Shown here: positions 14,662-21,276 of the stretch, one piece after another | How the letters are laid out: each line of letters starts with the position of its first letter | Position numbering within the stretch: the stretch's first letter is position 1 | Source of the DNA: a virus | Length of the DNA stretch: 23,837 bases | Virus record (IMG/VR): IMGVR_UViG_3300034108_000378 | Location: 1-23,837 of that record | Strand: one strand, 5' to 3' | Made by a program: the position numbers and the translations under genes | Notes under the pieces: model-generated | Database searches by the model: none | Told to the model about the DNA's origin: nothing | What the model saw: the letters and a program-made list of their open reading frames with translations, nothing else

Positions 14662-15237
14662 ATGAAAGACCAAAACCCTTACTTAGCAATTTGCACAAAC
14701 CGTTCAAGCGAATTAGTACCACTTTACAATCAAGCGTTCTTAGATTATCAAGGCATCGTTTGTTCGTCCGTAATAAACGAAAAGCCGAACAAGTACATAA
14801 TGAATTTGCATAACGAGTTTATTGATACCGCGGCTATTGTATTGAATATTTCAGAGAATGTATTCGTGTTTGATATGGAGGCGTTGTTATCCTTTGCTAC
14901 CCGTCAAGTGATTGAACGGATCGAAGTATGTGGAGTAACTGCGGCACAAGGTCATGTTCAAATGAGTGATGCGTTTAATATCATCATTCCAAAGACTACG
15001 ATAAGCGGAAAGAACTATTTCGCTCAAATGCACCAACTCGAAAAGGATTTATTCATTACCTACGATTTTGCTAAAGACGCCCCTGGCATTTTATTATTAA
15101 ACCAAGCGGGGCTTCCCTTCGCTATTTGGGCGGGTCAAATTAAATATGCTAAGTGCCCACCGATTGACTTTGATGCTTGCTATCAGTACGCACTTGAAAA
15201 GAAAAATCAGTACATCACAGCAGAACAAACAGCATGA
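14662..15237 (+). CDS. Unknown protein at the head of the glycosyltransferase cassette
   Basis: A 191-aa protein beginning NPYLAICTNRSSELVPLYNQ. The opening 'LAICTNR' recalls the first strand of GT-A proteins, but I see no DXD motif where it should lie. VFVFDMEALLSF and AFNIIIPKTTISG suggest alternating strands and helices, and LPFAIWAGQI is hydrophobic. It is followed with a 4-base overlap by a glycosyltransferase, so it probably works with the cassette. It could be a degenerate sugar transferase or an accessory factor. I do not assign a function. Confidence 0.5.
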   Translation: MKDQNPYLAICTNRSSELVPLYNQAFLDYQGIVCSSVINEKPNKYIMNLHNEFIDTAAIVLNISENVFVFDMEALLSFATRQVIERIEVCGVTAAQGHVQMSDAFNIIIPKTTISGKNYFAQMHQLEKDLFITYDFAKDAPGILLLNQAGLPFAIWAGQIKYAKCPPIDFDACYQYALEKKNQYITAEQTA

Positions 15238-15875
15238 ACGTAGCAGTTGTAACCCCACACCACGACCCGAAACGATCAATGTTTTTAGATCGGTTGAAGT
15301 TTTACATGAATCGTCAAACACGAAAGCCCGATCAATGGATAATCGTTGACGAACCTACCAACATCAAACCCGATTTAACGTACCGAGTTAGGATAGGTAT
15401 TGAACGAGCAATCGAAAACGGGGCGGATGTTATTCTGATTATGGAGGATGATGATTGGTACGACCCGCAATACATTGAGATTATGGTTGACGGATGGAAA
15501 CGAATGGGTAAGCCTCCGATATTTGGAATCGGTTATACTATCTACTGTTACATTTTTGGAGGTCGGTACTGGAACTCTCAACACAAGGGTCGTGCGTCTT
15601 TGATGAGTACGTTAATAACCAAAGAAGCTGCATTGAGTTTTAAATATCCGCATGACACCGAGGTATGGTTAGATATGGCAATGTGGAAAATAGCGGGCGG
15701 TAAAACCATCGAACCGAACAAGGCATATTCAATCGGGATTAAACACGGGATCGGAATGTGTGGAGGCGTTGGGCACAACAAAGGATTTAGCCGTTACACA
15801 TCAGACCCGAATCATAACGAGTTACGCAAACATATTAAAGACGATTTAGCATGGTACTTGAAACTCAGACAATAG
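15234..15875 (+). CDS. Glycosyltransferase, GT-A fold (family 2-like)
   Basis: A 213-aa protein. The N-terminal strand NVAVVTPHHDPKRSMFLDRL and the RKPDQWIIVDEP segment give the start of a GT-A Rossmann-like fold. VILIMEDDDWYDP (Glu71-Asp72-Asp73-Asp74) is the DXD-type site that binds the metal and nucleotide-sugar. Helix-rich residues after 150 (TEVWLDMAMWKIAGG) would form the acceptor side. The length is at the short end for GT2 enzymes. It overlaps the genes on both sides, by 4 and 25 bases. The sugar and the target (host glycan, virion protein or modified DNA base) cannot be told. Confidence 0.75.
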   Translation: MNVAVVTPHHDPKRSMFLDRLKFYMNRQTRKPDQWIIVDEPTNIKPDLTYRVRIGIERAIENGADVILIMEDDDWYDPQYIEIMVDGWKRMGKPPIFGIGYTIYCYIFGGRYWNSQHKGRASLMSTLITKEAALSFKYPHDTEVWLDMAMWKIAGGKTIEPNKAYSIGIKHGIGMCGGVGHNKGFSRYTSDPNHNELRKHIKDDLAWYLKLRQ

Positions 15876-16222
15876 AAACCCGCGATAAGTATTACCGCGA
15901 TCAAATCGCAATGTTTACAGCGTGGGAAGATCGCGTTGGTTACGTTTGCTCAATGGCTAAGAATTACGAAGCGGCTATAACCTACGGACGCAAGGTGCAA
16001 CGGTGTAATAACAATGCGTTTATACATCGGCACGGTAATATGTTTATCACTTATTCCGATTCGCAAATGGTAAGCGGTCTAATGGCTTTATTTAGCTTCG
16101 TGTATGGATTCGCACCTATGGAAATCGTTCAAACCTATCAGCCTAAATTCATTGAGTTGTTGGTTGATGTTATTCCAGACCAAACTATTTTGAACCTTAT
16201 TGAATCATTCCGTAAAGCATGA
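15851..16222 (+). CDS. SufE-like sulfur acceptor protein
   Basis: A 123-aa protein that lines up with SufE over its whole length. WEDRVGYV (25-32) fits the 'W..R..Y' start. YGRKVQRCNNNAF puts Cys52 where SufE has its persulfide-accepting Cys (Cys51 in E. coli, in IQGCQSQVW). FITYSDSQMVSGLMALFSFVYG fits SufE's 'GDSDA.IVKGL.A....Y', and APMEIVQTYQPKFIELL fits 'P..I......F....'. In bacteria SufE takes sulfur from the cysteine desulfurase SufS for iron-sulfur cluster assembly. The GCQS around the Cys is changed, so activity may differ. It sits between two glycosyltransferases and overlaps both, which is unexpected for a SufE relative. Confidence 0.72.
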   Translation: MVLETQTIETRDKYYRDQIAMFTAWEDRVGYVCSMAKNYEAAITYGRKVQRCNNNAFIHRHGNMFITYSDSQMVSGLMALFSFVYGFAPMEIVQTYQPKFIELLVDVIPDQTILNLIESFRKA

Positions 16223-16896
16223 ATATAGCAGTTATCATTTTAGCAGCCTCGACCGATCAAGATAAGATCGAAATGACACAAGCGGCGATCGATTCTGTTA
16301 AATCAAAACAGCACCGTGTTAATGTGTTGGTTGTTGATAGCCACGTATTACACCCGTATCGAAACGCTCGTACGATATTACAACAAGAACCGTTTAACTA
16401 CAACCGAAACTTAAAAGAGGGCATCAGATACATCGTAGCGGATCAAATCACTTACGATTATTTTTTGGTCCTGAATAACGATGTGTTGCTTGGTGAAAGT
16501 TGTATCGACAATCTTATAAACACGGGATTAGATTCATGCAGCCCGAAAGACCCGACATTGGCAATACACGAAGCCTACAAAGGTATTACATTCGGTTATC
16601 GAACGTCTTATCAACTTTGTGGATGGGCTTTGATGTTTAGCCGTTACTTACTTTATGAATGTGGCATCGATACGTTATTCCCGAATGAATTACCGTTTTG
16701 GTTTCAGGATAACTTCTACGGTCATGTTATTAAGGCTAACAAGTTTCAACACGCACTAATCGCAGACGCTCATTGCATCCATCTTGAATCGAAAACACAC
16801 GACCTACTTACTAACCGCCACGACCTAACAGAAGGGCTTAGACCAAAATACGATGAACTTATCCGACAATTCGATCTTCAGTTTTCCGCCCGTTAA
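16219..16896 (+). CDS. Glycosyltransferase, GT-A fold (family 2-like)
   Basis: A 225-aa protein. It begins NIAVIILAASTDQDKIEMTQ with RVNVLVVDSH next, the first two strands of a GT-A fold. YFLVLNNDVLLGE (Asn86-Asn87-Asp88) is in the DXD position. Residues 137-165 (YQLCGWALMFSRYLLYECGI) and WFQDNFYGHVI match the 'G..m...R.......FD..F..Y..D.D' acceptor region of family 2 enzymes. It is a different subtype from the transferase at 15234. It starts in an ATGA overlap with the SufE-like gene, so the two are translationally coupled. Substrate unknown. Confidence 0.72.
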   Translation: MNIAVIILAASTDQDKIEMTQAAIDSVKSKQHRVNVLVVDSHVLHPYRNARTILQQEPFNYNRNLKEGIRYIVADQITYDYFLVLNNDVLLGESCIDNLINTGLDSCSPKDPTLAIHEAYKGITFGYRTSYQLCGWALMFSRYLLYECGIDTLFPNELPFWFQDNFYGHVIKANKFQHALIADAHCIHLESKTHDLLTNRHDLTEGLRPKYDELIRQFDLQFSAR

Positions 16897-17533
16897 CCAA
16901 TCAGATTATCTAAGTGCCGAACCTTTTGCGCACGCTACGTTCAAAGATATTTTCAATCGTGAATTTCTTGTTACGGTTGCTAATGAGTTTCCCGATTTAG
17001 CGATCAATGCGGATCGTATCTTTAACAACCATCACGAAAAGAAACACGTTACATTCGGAGAATCGAAGCTGTCAGACAGCGCAAAGACTTTAGTAAGGTT
17101 CTGTAATTCCGAGCCGTTTCTATTATGGCTTACCGAATTAACTGGCATCGAAAATCTTATGCCCGATCCTTATCTTATCGGAGGCGGTTACCACGAAATC
17201 AAGACGGGCGGTAAGTTAGGTATTCACGTTGACTTTGATAAGCACGGCACATGGGGAGCAAATCGAAGGATTAACGTACTGATTTATCTAAATGAAGATT
17301 GGCGTCCTGAGTGGGGCGGTGGAATAAAACTTTACGATACCGATCTAAATGAAAAGGTTTGTGTTAATCCCGAACTTGGCAATGTGGTAATATTCAGCAC
17401 GACTGATAAATCTTGGCACGGACATCCTGAACCTTTAACGTGCCCGAAAGACAAGAGCCGTAAGTCAATCGCATTGTACTATTATACCGCTCCCGAAATG
17501 GATTGGAAAGGAAACGACACAATCTTTAGATAA
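16853..17533 (+). CDS. 2-oxoglutarate/Fe(II) oxygenase, prolyl-4-hydroxylase-like
   Basis: A 226-aa oxygenase that should hydroxylate its target with O2 and 2-oxoglutarate. GIHVDFD gives the HxD iron ligands (His125, Asp127), SWHGHPEPL the distal His (His189), and SRKSIALYYYT the Arg (Arg203) for 2-oxoglutarate. RRINVLIYLNEDW and EWGGGIKLYD are the usual core strands between them. Phages use related enzymes on proteins or nucleobases, and some work on glycans. The start overlaps the transferase before it by 44 bases; no better in-frame ATG lies later without removing conserved sequence. Target unknown. Confidence 0.8.
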   Translation: MNLSDNSIFSFPPVNQSDYLSAEPFAHATFKDIFNREFLVTVANEFPDLAINADRIFNNHHEKKHVTFGESKLSDSAKTLVRFCNSEPFLLWLTELTGIENLMPDPYLIGGGYHEIKTGGKLGIHVDFDKHGTWGANRRINVLIYLNEDWRPEWGGGIKLYDTDLNEKVCVNPELGNVVIFSTTDKSWHGHPEPLTCPKDKSRKSIALYYYTAPEMDWKGNDTIFR

Positions 17534-18306
17534 TGAAATTAGCAGTAGCCTACAATATCTTTGACGGGGTTGAAAATCTCGAAACGTCCGTTAAGAACAT
17601 AAGACCATTAACAGATATGCTGATCGGGGTTTATCAGTCTATATCGAACTATGGCAATGTGATCGACAAGGACATTCCCGCATTACTTCAACGGCTTGGT
17701 TTTCATTACATCATTGAATACATTCCCGACCTTACCCAAACGCCACATTTTAACGAGATCGCTAAACGTAACATCGGGCTTGATATAGCCAGGCAAAACG
17801 GGTGCGAATTGTTTATGACAATGGACTGTGATGAAATGTACAATCTATCCGAATTAAAACGGGCTAAGAATGAATTTGAACGGTCGGGTAGTGATGCTTC
17901 TGCTTGTATGATGCAGACTTACTACGGTAACAGTCGGATGGTTTATGCCGAACCTGAAACATATTACGTAACGCTATTTTTCAAGACCGATTCAAAAGAC
18001 ATCAGACGGTTTAGGGAGTTTGTACAGTTTCCAGTCTTAGCTGATCCAACACGTAAGCTACCATCGAATAAAGTGTTAGTGTTTCCGAGATCGACTATTC
18101 AGATGCACCACTATTCATACGTGCGTGAAGATATACGGATGAAGTTGATAAATTCGAGTGCGTTACGTAACTACAAAGACAGAGTTGAAGAAATCGTTTC
18201 GGCTTATCAGAATTGGAATGGTGGTAATAGCGGATTGACTGTTCACGGATTAACGCCACTTGTTGAGGTCGAATCGCTTAATATCCCTATTCCTGAGTTT
18301 CAATAG
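17533..18306 (+). CDS. Glycosyltransferase, GT-A fold (family 2-like)
   Basis: A 257-aa protein. It begins MKLAVAYNIFDGVENLETSV, and LFMTMDCDEMY (Asp98 to Glu101) is the DXD-type site. Later IQMHHYSYVREDIRMKLINSS matches the 'H.SY.R....K' motif of GT2-type enzymes that add sugars to polysaccharide or protein. It is longer than the other two transferases and most like cellular ones. Its first base is shared with the preceding stop. Its last 20 bases overlap, on the other strand, the end of the leftward 18287-18583 gene, so the two operons meet head-on here with no evident terminator. Confidence 0.75.
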   Translation: MKLAVAYNIFDGVENLETSVKNIRPLTDMLIGVYQSISNYGNVIDKDIPALLQRLGFHYIIEYIPDLTQTPHFNEIAKRNIGLDIARQNGCELFMTMDCDEMYNLSELKRAKNEFERSGSDASACMMQTYYGNSRMVYAEPETYYVTLFFKTDSKDIRRFREFVQFPVLADPTRKLPSNKVLVFPRSTIQMHHYSYVREDIRMKLINSSALRNYKDRVEEIVSAYQNWNGGNSGLTVHGLTPLVEVESLNIPIPEFQ

Positions 18307-18583
18307 CAAGGTGTCTATAACTTGACATTCTTGTAATTGTGCCGCCTAACATAATCGCTCCACCCATTGCGTAGAATGGTTTATAAAGGTTGCCATTTGT
18401 TTTTTGAGCGTAATAACCTAAAGCACAAATAGCCGCTCCGACAATTTGCATACCAGTACCAAATGCGTGTTCCTTTCTGAATTGTTCGAGTTTAAGGTCA
18501 ATCGGTTTGGGTTGTGGTTGGACGAATTGGGCTTGTGATGTTAGTGCCGTTAAAAGCAGGACGGTTGTAATTAGTGTTTTCAT
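18287..18583 (-). CDS. Exported small protein with two hydrophobic segments
   Basis: A 98-aa protein read leftward. The first 19 residues (MKTLITTVLLLTALTSQAQ) form a Sec signal peptide of the form common in Bacteroidota, ending at an AQ-type cleavage site. GTGMQIVGAAICALGYYA (about 42-59) and FYAMGGAIMLGGTIT (about 70-84) are two likely membrane helices. No lipobox Cys. It could be a holin-like or envelope protein, or act in superinfection exclusion. Its start overlaps the HNH gene's end by 4 bases. Confidence 0.6.
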   Translation of the reverse strand: MKTLITTVLLLTALTSQAQFVQPQPKPIDLKLEQFRKEHAFGTGMQIVGAAICALGYYAQKTNGNLYKPFYAMGGAIMLGGTITRMSSYRHLAIETQE

Positions 18584-19113
18584 TTTGGTCTGTAATCTGT
18601 CGTGTGTTTATTTCCCTTTTCCATATTGCAATCTCTACACAATACTTGAAGGTTGTCAAATTCAAATTGTAAGTTAGGAAACTTTGAACGTGGTTTGATA
18701 TGATCTACGTGTAACTCGCATCTTGAAGCACCGCATTTCATACATTTCAATCCATAGGTTCGTAGTGTTTTTCTTCTTAGCAATTCCCATTCCTTTAATT
18801 GAAAAAACAGATCACTTGCAATATATTTTTTTGATTTTTGTTTTGGCTGCTTCTTTTTTCTCTTTTCTACTTTTGGTATATTCTTTTTGTTTAGAACATT
18901 ACAAGTTTCAGAGTTCATTATTTCAACAGCCCAATACTTCCAAAAAGATTTTGTTGGAGGCTCAATTTTTTTTGAATCGCAATAAACACGAACAAAATCC
19001 ATATCACAAAATTTTGAAGTGTCTTTACCTAATTTCTTAGCGTAATCACGAAGTTTTCTAACTATTGATTGATGCGTTTTATGAGATACTTTGTAGTCTT
19101 TTTTAATCGACAT
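18580..19113 (-). CDS. HNH endonuclease, free-standing
   Basis: A 177-aa protein. The C-terminal 55 residues hold a full HNH/treble-clef site: CMKC (Cys124, Cys127), HVDHIKPRSKFPN (Asp137-His138), FDNLQVLCRDCN (Asn154, Cys159, Cys162, Asn163) and KGNKH. This nicks or cuts DNA. The N-terminal 100 residues are basic and Lys-rich (KVEKRKKKQPKQKSKKY) and may bind DNA. The gene is far more AT-rich than the late genes around it and faces the other way, as expected of a mobile (homing-type) endonuclease gene. A packaging-associated HNH is the alternative, but those usually sit beside terS or terL. Confidence 0.85.
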   Translation of the reverse strand: MSIKKDYKVSHKTHQSIVRKLRDYAKKLGKDTSKFCDMDFVRVYCDSKKIEPPTKSFWKYWAVEIMNSETCNVLNKKNIPKVEKRKKKQPKQKSKKYIASDLFFQLKEWELLRRKTLRTYGLKCMKCGASRCELHVDHIKPRSKFPNLQFEFDNLQVLCRDCNMEKGNKHTTDYRPK

Positions 19114-19159
19114 AGTTAGTCTGCTTACGAGTTTGAGGGAGTGAGGGAGGAGGCAAAGA

Positions 19160-19195
19160 AAGTGTTTACCCCTACCCCTAAAGAGATAAACACTT
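19160..19195. repeat. 9-bp perfect inverted repeat (AAGTGTTTA)
   Basis: AAGTGTTTA at 19160-19168 pairs exactly with TAAACACTT at 19187-19195 across an 18-base spacer that contains CCCCTA twice. It lies 46 bases upstream of the leftward HNH start. No T-run follows on either strand, so it is not a classical terminator. It could be an operator for the HNH gene or a leader hairpin. Confidence 0.6.
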
Positions 19196-19420
19196 CCTCG
19201 CCTGATTTTGCTTCCTGAGAATCGGTCGCTCGGTCGTCGGCTTCTGCTGGAAAGTGTTTTGTCCGAACACAGAATATTATGAGAAATTGTCTTTGCTAAT
19301 TAATACGCTTCGGTCTTACCCTTTATGCCTTTTCACTCCGAACAAATTGGCTTCTCGGAGATGCTTATAATTTGATATATTAATTCTTTTTCATCTGTTT
19401 ATTTTAGTTTCTCATTCTCC

Positions 19421-19484
19421 CCCGTGCGTGCTGCACTGTATCAATCTGTCTTTCCTAACTAAGTATGAAACAAACACGCACGGG
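19421..19484. repeat. 10-bp GC-rich inverted repeat (CCCGTGCGTG)
   Basis: CCCGTGCGTG at 19421-19430 is exactly matched by CACGCACGGG at 19475-19484, with 44 bases between. A perfect GC-rich 10-bp pair is unlikely by chance in this AT-richer stretch. It would give a stable stem on either strand and directly precedes the pseudoknot-capable segment at 19501-19581. Confidence 0.65.
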
Positions 19485-19494
19485 ATATAAAGAA

Positions 19495-19529
19495 CGAAAA
19501 AGCCTGAAACGGTTGGACGCGATCAGGCT
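19495..19529 (-). terminator. Possible intrinsic terminator of the leftward 19599-20132 gene
   Basis: Read leftward, AGCCTGA and TCAGGCT (7 bp, 15-base loop) are followed by TTTTC, so the hairpin ends in a short U-run. It lies 70 bases after the stop of the 19599-20132 gene. The U-run is only five bases and the loop is large, so strength is uncertain. The same bases form helix B of the pseudoknot above. Confidence 0.4.
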
Positions 19530-19581
19530 CTTGTGTAAATCTACCCCAGTAGATAAGTCTTTAGAAACGTCCAACTGTTTC
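19501..19581. ncRNA. Pseudoknot-capable segment, possible structured RNA
   Basis: Three helices can be drawn. Helix B pairs AGCCTGA (19501-19507) with TCAGGCT (19523-19529). Helix A pairs the 14 bases at 19506-19519 with 19568-19581; on the + strand the one non-Watson-Crick pair is G.U, while on the - strand it is an A.C mismatch. Helix C is ATCTAC (19539-19544), loop CCCA, GTAGAT (19549-19554). The order B5'-A5'-B3'-A3' is an H-type pseudoknot, with helix C inside its second loop. The two helices share two bases at their junction. I recognise no known RNA family. Confidence 0.35.
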
Positions 19582-19598
19582 GTAGGCAAACATACAAA

Positions 19599-20132
19599 CT
19601 ATTTCGATACCTCCAAACACTTTTCAATTTTTCCCGTTAAAGCCCCAAACATATCAGTAGCTAAATACATCCGAACCCCTTTAGTTCGTAAGGCTTTATC
19701 AAGTTTCATAAAATCATCAATTACCCTTGTTATTTTTGGTAACGTGCCGAGTGATTTGTGCCCGTATAAATCAACACCATTAATCCCGATTTCAGTAGCC
19801 CCCATAAAATACGCATGGATAACACCTACATAAGCCGAGGTTATTGAATGAGGGTAGTGCTGCTTTAAATGCAGTTCGGATATGTCGTGGCGGTGCTTGG
19901 TTAGTTCAATCGGGCGCACGTTGGATCGGTAACTAATCCACTCGTTGCATTGCGTGTACATCGCGGTAGTATCTTGCATCATGTACTTTATTCGACCGCC
20001 CGTGAATATGCGAGGTGGATCAACACATACAATCGCATCACACTTTAATCGACAATCATTTAGACCGATGTAGTAATCGTAACCGTCTAATCTATTTGCG
20101 GATTCTCCTAATCCCATAACCAATGCTTTCAT
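19599..20132 (-). CDS. DUF115/MptE-like or GT29-like Rossmann-fold protein
   Basis: A 177-aa protein from ATG at 20130-20132 (leftward); the longer frame lies in the intergenic region and the opposite gene. KALVMGLGESANRLDGYDYYIGLND is the typical start: a glycine-rich loop, then 'D..IG.N'. It is followed by CDAIVCVDPP, HSITSAYVGVIHAYFMGATEIGINGVDLYGHKS and a final MYLATDMFGAL. This order fits phage and bacterial proteins related to MptE/DUF115 and to family 29 (sialyltransferase-like) glycosyltransferases. It may act with the glycosyltransferase cassette although it is transcribed the other way. It is complete and ends TAG. Confidence 0.6.
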   Translation of the reverse strand: MKALVMGLGESANRLDGYDYYIGLNDCRLKCDAIVCVDPPRIFTGGRIKYMMQDTTAMYTQCNEWISYRSNVRPIELTKHRHDISELHLKQHYPHSITSAYVGVIHAYFMGATEIGINGVDLYGHKSLGTLPKITRVIDDFMKLDKALRTKGVRMYLATDMFGALTGKIEKCLEVSK

Positions 20133-20155
20133 GTGTTGTTTCGTTTTGCTGCAAA

Positions 20156-20163
20156 CAAAAGTA
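20156..20163 (-). promoter_or_regulatory. Possible -7 element TACTTTTG for the leftward gene
   Basis: On the minus strand TACTTTTG matches TAnnTTTG and lies 23 bases upstream of the 20132 start. No TTG lies at the 19-base spacing used at 810 and 3272, so only half of the promoter is seen. The rightward protease gene diverges from the same 67-base gap (20133-20199). On the plus strand I see only a weak TAATTTTA at 20187-20194. Confidence 0.35.
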
Positions 20164-20199
20164 ATCATTGCAACGATAGGTTGTTTTAATTTTACACCC

Positions 20200-21276
20200 A
20201 TGGCAGACATCACAGCATGGATAGTTGGTGAAGTAAAGCAAGGTATCACTTTGCCAAATCTTCACAAACAGATCGGGATGGTAACTGAAAAAGATACCGT
20301 TACCGTTAACATCATTTCTGAAGGTGGTTCATATCACGAAGGTATGGATTGCTACAACTACCTGAAATCTTTGCCGTGTAATGTCGTAACGGTCGCAAAA
20401 GGAACGGTTGCATCAATAGCAACACTTATCCAATTAGCAGCACCAAAGCAAAACCGTTTTGCTGAGAGTTATTCCAAGCCGTTAATTCACAACCCCTGGG
20501 GAGAGATTTCGGGCGATGCTAAAACGATGCAGAACTATTCAGACGCATTGAAAGCTACTGAAGATGAACTTGTCGGGATTTATGTATTAGAAACGGGCAG
20601 CGATGAACAAGCTATTCGATCAGCAATGGAGGCGAATGATTTCATTTCAGTTGAAAAGTACAAAGAACTTGGATTCATTTCTAAGGTACTCGAACCGATC
20701 AAAGCCGTTGCGATTCTCGACATTCAAGAAAAACCAATAAACAAATCAGATCAATCAATTATGAACCAAATCGAAAAGAAGCTAAACTCGATGTTTGCGA
20801 GTATTAGCAACAAACTCGGCATTAAAAACGAGTTTACAGAAACAAAAGCGATGGTTATGGAACTCGAAGACGGTTCTAAAATTAACATCGTAACAGAATC
20901 GGAAAGCCCTGAAGTAGGTAATCCCGTGCAACTCGAAGACGGCACGCCTGCATCGGACGGAGATTACACACTTGCAGACGGCTCGGTTATCCGTGTTGAA
21001 GCGGGTGTAATTTCTGAAGTAGTCGCTGCAATGTCAGAGGACGAAGATGAAGAAATGAAGGCGTTAAAAGCCGAAAACGAAACATTGAAAGCAAGTGTTT
21101 CCGAATTGAACGCGAAACTTGAAACCTACGCTAAAACGGTTGAGGTTATCAACGCTAAATTGGAGCAATCTTATGTAGCACCTACACGCAATTCATTCAA
21201 GGCTAAAAAGGTATCAGACGAGCCAAAGCCGCTTTTCACTAAAGACGATTTAAAAACCACTCCAAAAACAAAATAA
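20200..21276 (+). CDS. Prohead maturation protease (ClpP/S14-like) fused to a scaffold-like tail
   Basis: A 358-aa protein; the ATG at 20200 opens MADITAWIVGEV, a typical first strand. Residues 35-105 hold the protease core: VNIISEGGSYHEGMDCYNYL, KGTVASIATLI with Ser72 as nucleophile, and PLIHNPWG with His97. NDFISVEKYKELGF near 155 fits the end of the ClpP fold. Residues about 200-358 form an acidic, coiled-coil tail (MKALKAENETLKASVSEL), as expected for a scaffold that the protease clears. An internal ATG at 20761 (MNQIEKKLNSMF) could start a scaffold-only product of 171 aa. The next gene, the major capsid protein, follows after three bases. Confidence 0.85.
   Translation: MADITAWIVGEVKQGITLPNLHKQIGMVTEKDTVTVNIISEGGSYHEGMDCYNYLKSLPCNVVTVAKGTVASIATLIQLAAPKQNRFAESYSKPLIHNPWGEISGDAKTMQNYSDALKATEDELVGIYVLETGSDEQAIRSAMEANDFISVEKYKELGFISKVLEPIKAVAILDIQEKPINKSDQSIMNQIEKKLNSMFASISNKLGIKNEFTETKAMVMELEDGSKINIVTESESPEVGNPVQLEDGTPASDGDYTLADGSVIRVEAGVISEVVAAMSEDEDEEMKALKAENETLKASVSELNAKLETYAKTVEVINAKLEQSYVAPTRNSFKAKKVSDEPKPLFTKDDLKTTPKTK

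Follow-up and report, generated by a model that had tools for sequence, protein, structure and literature searches.

A 123-aa protein encoded on an environmental virus contig is, judged by sequence comparison, related to SufE, and the best explanation for it is a fast-evolving SufE-superfamily protein that has become fixed among the virion genes of a single phage lineage. Aligned with canonical SufEs, the phage family keeps the key residues of three of the regions through which SufE contacts the cysteine desulfurase SufS (Trp20, Cys51 and Asp74 in E. coli numbering), but not that of the fourth, Arg119, a loss that the original prediction had missed. Arg119 is a defining residue of SufE, and the protein is therefore classed here as a SufE-superfamily variant rather than as a member of the SufE family. 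We tentatively favour a role as a SufS-docking, release-defective mimic of SufE over that of a working sulfur donor; homology, the pattern of residues, synteny and selection are shown by the data, while docking, persulfide acceptance and inhibition are parts of this reading that we infer.

The 23,837 bases of the window, by which we mean the whole stretch of DNA analysed, make up an IMG/VR virus contig that encodes terminase, head-maturation protease, capsid-like, tail and tape-measure proteins, and the relatives of its terminase and capsid suggest that the phage probably infects Bacteroidota. On the 3' side of the tape-measure gene, an overlapping run comprises a 78-aa ORF, a 191-aa ORF, GT1 (15234-15875, plus strand; 213 aa), the SufE-like ORF (15851-16222, plus strand), GT2 (16219-16896, plus strand; 225 aa), a 2OG-Fe(II) oxygenase (16853-17533, plus strand; 226 aa; PF13640, 1.9e-17) and GT3 (17533-18306, plus strand; 257 aa). 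As originally predicted, both genes that flank the SufE-like ORF overlap it and are glycosyltransferase-like: the ORF has 25 nt in common with GT1 at its start and 4 nt (ATGA) in common with the start of GT2 at its stop. The description of these neighbours as glycosyltransferases is well founded for GT2, which matches the phage glycosyltransferase family phrog_22332 at 1.7e-15, and weaker for the GT-A-like GT1 (with a MEDDDW motif) and the weakly GT2-family-like GT3, both of which have sub-threshold Pfam Glycos_transf_2 matches and DxD-like motifs. The overlaps are also the sole basis for the earlier suggestion that the SufE-like protein is part of their pathway. The oxygenase is the most conserved gene of the cassette, with 89% identity to that of a sister phage; it is 36-38% identical to proteins of the marine viruses AG-345-E08 and AG-345-L05, and might act on a virion protein, hydroxylating it ahead of glycosylation. 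Elsewhere in the window, a short opposite-strand block lies within the structural genes (18287-20249, minus strand) and holds a 98-aa ORF, an HNH endonuclease (PF01844, 2.3e-10) and an unmatched 216-aa ORF with 70% identity in the sister phage. In contig 3300037493_002968 the gap from GT3 to the 216-aa homologue is 11 nt, and the HNH gene and 98-aa ORF are therefore absent there. A match to the C-5 cytosine DNA methylase family (PF00145, 7.6e-10) at positions 114-794 is partial, covering the first 83 of 324 profile positions.

Two further IMG/VR contigs carry an orthologue of the SufE-like gene at the same place, 3300037493_002968 (L002:7642-8004; 49% identity) and 3300037541_000425 (L035:8618-8986; 56%), both first reached via neighbouring genes and both with the same GT1 and GT2 overlaps. 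When searched with a single sequence, INPHARED phages, PLSDB plasmids, GTDB genomes and IMG/VR yielded no relatives, and homologue scans with two- and three-row alignments returned the same two contigs and nothing further. Synonymous sites of the gene are near saturation (pS 0.68-0.86) with pN at 0.30-0.36, so purifying selection has maintained the gene over a long separation. Conservation is higher in GT1, GT2 and the oxygenase gene; in the SufE-like protein, 39% of columns are invariant across the three phage orthologues.

Evidence for the relationship to SufE comes from several profile comparisons. The Pfam SufE family (PF02657) matches residues 18-102 with E=5.9e-6 and 26.5 bits, half a bit under the curated cut-off of 27 bits; the two orthologues match with E=2.7e-4 (21.2 bits) and 9.4e-6 (25.9 bits), and all three scores fall under that cut-off. 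Comparison of the phage family with SufE by hhalign, over residues 13-101, gave a probability of 93% with E=3e-7. When the 14 canonical sequences were made into a SufE profile, with the phage proteins left out, it scored the three orthologues at 18.3-20.9 bits, against 9.5 bits for the best of ~8,500 scored shuffles. Across the ORFs of the collected loci, the canonical profile found this phage family only, besides canonical SufEs, and the reverse search with a phage-family profile recovered SufEs among the same loci. Identity to E. coli SufE is 22%, and a single-sequence search of the PDB with the phage protein found no SufE; its phmmer matches, to repeat-protein and antibody chains, were set aside as chance. 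The original prediction had the protein following SufE along its length: the similarity is real, as PF02657 and the shuffle control attest, and it covers residues 12-102 only, ending before the Arg119 region.

The predicted fold is that of SufE, with SufE rows in the alignment behind the model. An AlphaFold (AF2) model made with phage and viral SufE rows reached a pLDDT of 92.8 and a pTM of 0.87, and its top PDB matches in Foldseek were all SufE or CsdE at a probability of 1.00, 1mzg SufE among them. The best TM-score belonged to 8vbs_C, a SufE from a SufS complex (0.76/0.71), followed by CsdE and then IscU. With two phage rows alone, pLDDT fell to 57 and the Foldseek search, which gave no SufE match, was meaningless; the confident model needed the SufE rows, and the fold evidence therefore rests partly on the alignment. 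A BFVD fold search returned no match. The structure search proposed with the original prediction, which could have pointed to a non-SufE fold, thus gave SufE/CsdE as best matches for a model that used SufE rows. Relative to SufE (PF02657/IPR003808; E. coli SufE, PDB 1mzg and 8vbs), the phage protein has the predicted fold, the element order, a similar size and equivalents of Trp20, Cys51, Asp74 and Gly80, but differs in its shorter strand hairpin and C-terminus and in lacking the Arg119 loop and the GCxSxVW motif. IscU and SufU are a distant fold match only (TM about 0.5 for IscU), much weaker than that of SufE. In proteins of the IscU/SufU type, cluster or zinc ligands are provided by three conserved cysteines; only two cysteines, Cys33 and Cys52, are invariant in the phage family, which thus has no obvious ligand set of that type. 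CsdE (E. coli YgdK; PDB 4lw4, 5ft8 and 5nq6) shares the predicted fold, by Foldseek, and a cysteine in the same loop, but keeps an arginine-containing loop (PMC11408855) that the phage protein is missing; that loop is also present in the CsdE-like sequence of INPHARED record OQ572403.1.

Residues kept and lost were read from a joint alignment of the three phage proteins with the 14 canonical SufEs. Cys52 (codon at 16004-16006, plus strand) falls opposite E. coli Cys51, the persulfide-accepting position, as originally predicted, and homologues lacking it, which would have told against that prediction, were not among the three orthologues: all three have the cysteine, within a conserved gene run, an invariance that rests on these three sequences. 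The equivalents of Asp74 and Gly80 (Asp70 and Gly76) are likewise kept in all three, as is that of Trp20 (Trp25). The loop around the cysteine is altered, again in agreement with the original prediction: the motif QRC[NS]NNA, extended as RC[NS]NNA[FY], is found in 3/3 phage proteins where GCxSxVW is found in 14/14 canonical SufEs, with Gly50 replaced by Arg, Ser53 by Asn, Val55 by Ala and Trp56 by Phe or Tyr. Arg51, immediately before Cys52, is invariant in the three orthologues. A further departure lies in the C-terminal stretch (residues 100-123; 16148-16219, plus strand), where canonical proteins have HL[ST]PxR[SR]xG: Arg119 and its loop are found in none of the three phage proteins and in all 14 canonical SufEs, the aligner placing a Pro at the Arg119 position in a segment five residues shorter. 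Gly122 is also replaced, and Ala134, invariant in the canonical set, lies beyond the end of the phage proteins. A protein that has lost Arg119 together with the loop around it is less likely to be a normal transpersulfurase.

The effect of substituting this arginine has been studied in E. coli. Four SufE regions (A-D) contact SufS, with W20, C51, D74 and R119 as key residues, and two of these, C51 and R119, are described as the pair conserved universally among SufE-like folds (PMC11408855). The R119A variant of SufE had the lowest Kd for SufS and accepted persulfide, yet turnover was blocked and there was no Fe-S assembly in vivo; its authors assign R119 a role in SufE release (PMC11408855). 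A release-defective mimic is favoured here because Arg119 is lost, the contact residues are kept, and R119A binds tightly and blocks turnover. The phage protein would dock on a host type II cysteine desulfurase, of the SufS or CsdA type, via Trp25, the Cys loop and Asp70, and Cys52 would be able to take persulfide from it. Without the release arginine, the protein would then be stuck in a tight 'close-approach' complex with SufS, which would be titrated or throttled such that host sulfur and Fe-S supply is damped or redirected during infection. The position of the gene between glycosyltransferase genes would on this account be a matter of expression together with late genes, not of sugar chemistry. 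A target in the host fits the finding that the ORFs scanned in the window and in a sister phage contain no family of sulfur-using partner enzyme. A stronger form of the same proposal, in which an R119-less, dominant-negative phage SufE locks host SufS in a persulfide-loaded, close-approach complex and thereby stops SUF Fe-S biogenesis or diverts it, we regard as doubtful. No phage protein that inhibits the SUF system is known to us, and none was found in a search of the literature.

Several points tell against a mimic. The heavily altered Cys loop (RCNNN, RCSNN) could abolish docking or persulfide handling, and the invariant Arg51 could stand in for Arg119; these are the main doubts over a protein that traps SufS. 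In addition, R119A is a single substitution, whereas here the whole loop is shortened; the invariance of Cys52 comes from three sequences that share 39% of their columns unchanged; and a role in the cassette accounts better for the placement among glycosyltransferase genes.

That neighbourhood is what keeps the main rival close behind the SufS mimic. It is possible that the glycosyltransferase/2OG-oxygenase cassette has taken on the SufE fold as a small accessory subunit or adaptor, free of sulfur chemistry, which might steady GT1 or GT2, for instance, or present a virion protein. The overlaps of 25 nt with GT1 and 4 nt with GT2 are conserved in three contigs, most canonical SufE invariants are lost, sulfur pathway genes were not found in the scanned ORFs, and the gene evolves faster than GT1 and GT2, all of which speaks for an adaptor. 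Nevertheless, what remains of the canonical set is the SufS-facing Cys52, Trp25 and Asp70, and it counts further against an adaptor that no glycosyltransferase with a SufE-fold subunit is known to us or was found in a literature search.

An altered but working sulfur acceptor, passing persulfide from host SufS to a host or phage target, or boosting Fe-S assembly under stress, is unlikely. A boost of that kind has been proposed for marine viral sufE, a reported auxiliary gene (PMC8940887), and this precedent, the presence of Cys52 in 3/3 orthologues and the chance that Arg51 beside it might replace Arg119 all speak for such a function. Against it, the strictly conserved, turnover-essential Arg119 (PMC11408855) is missing in 3/3, GCxSxVW is lost and no recipient enzyme was found in the scanned ORFs. 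Among the ORFs scanned in the window and one sister phage there were no sulfurtransferase, SufS, thiolation or Fe-S enzyme families, and no sufS was found beside the SufE-like gene. Of the functions first suggested for the protein, that of supplying a sugar or base with sulfur was rejected on the lack of a sulfurtransferase in those ORFs, and help to an Fe-S enzyme found no support in them.

Other viral SufEs also set the window gene apart from a working acceptor. The original prediction knew of no well-described phage SufE in a sugar-modification cassette; SufE genes in viruses as such have already been reported (PMC8940887), and the canonical ones checked here sit elsewhere. A scan of IMG/VR with canonical SufEs gave 19 contigs (L011-L029), all of which keep both Arg119 and GCxSxVW; the SufE of L014, for instance, matches PF02657 at E=2e-31 with Arg119 kept, and at least one, that of L016, is very close to the enterobacterial one. 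Representative neighbourhoods contain ThyX, DNA ligase, MazG-like and ferredoxin-type families, and neither glycosyltransferases nor 2OG oxygenases appeared among the best 25 families of each neighbourhood scan. As these other viral SufEs are canonical and have other neighbourhoods, the window gene is a separate kind of occurrence. Several of the IMG/VR contigs (L020-L029) encode closely similar SufEs with an N-terminal extension, MYIKGGMKK..., a conserved basic leader before the canonical domain, and in L011-L013 one ORF near the viral SufE matches PF01289 (thiol-activated cytolysin; 3.3e-35). The INPHARED SufE carriers MT836179, MW462191 and Y1 were rejected as phage precedents, having chromosomal-type neighbours and a bacterial appearance. 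INPHARED records MW462191.1, MT836179.1 and OQ572403.1 (L008, L009 and L010; the last two marked UNVERIFIED) hold SufE/CsdE among chromosomal-type genes and look wholly or partly bacterial.

It is very improbable that the protein is a redox or thiol protein whose SufE scaffold carries Cys33 and Cys52 as a switchable pair: these are the only two cysteines invariant in the three orthologues, and a redox-inhibited CsdE structure exists (5nq6), but Cys33, which belongs to the second helix, aligns with Ile28 of E. coli SufE and thus has no counterpart there. Least credible of all is a chance resemblance with no homology to SufE, which could appeal to single-sequence PDB searches without SufE and to Pfam scores just under the curated cut-off, but has against it three orthologues that match independently, profiles that match in both directions and shuffles that score far lower.

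In a conserved lineage that keeps Cys51 but has dropped Arg119, nature has run an experiment on how SufE is released during protected persulfide transfer, a question approachable with existing SufS/SufE assays. If the phage protein does bind SufS, it would be, as far as we know, the first phage protein aimed at the SUF system; binding to a glycosyltransferase instead would represent a new use of the SufE fold.
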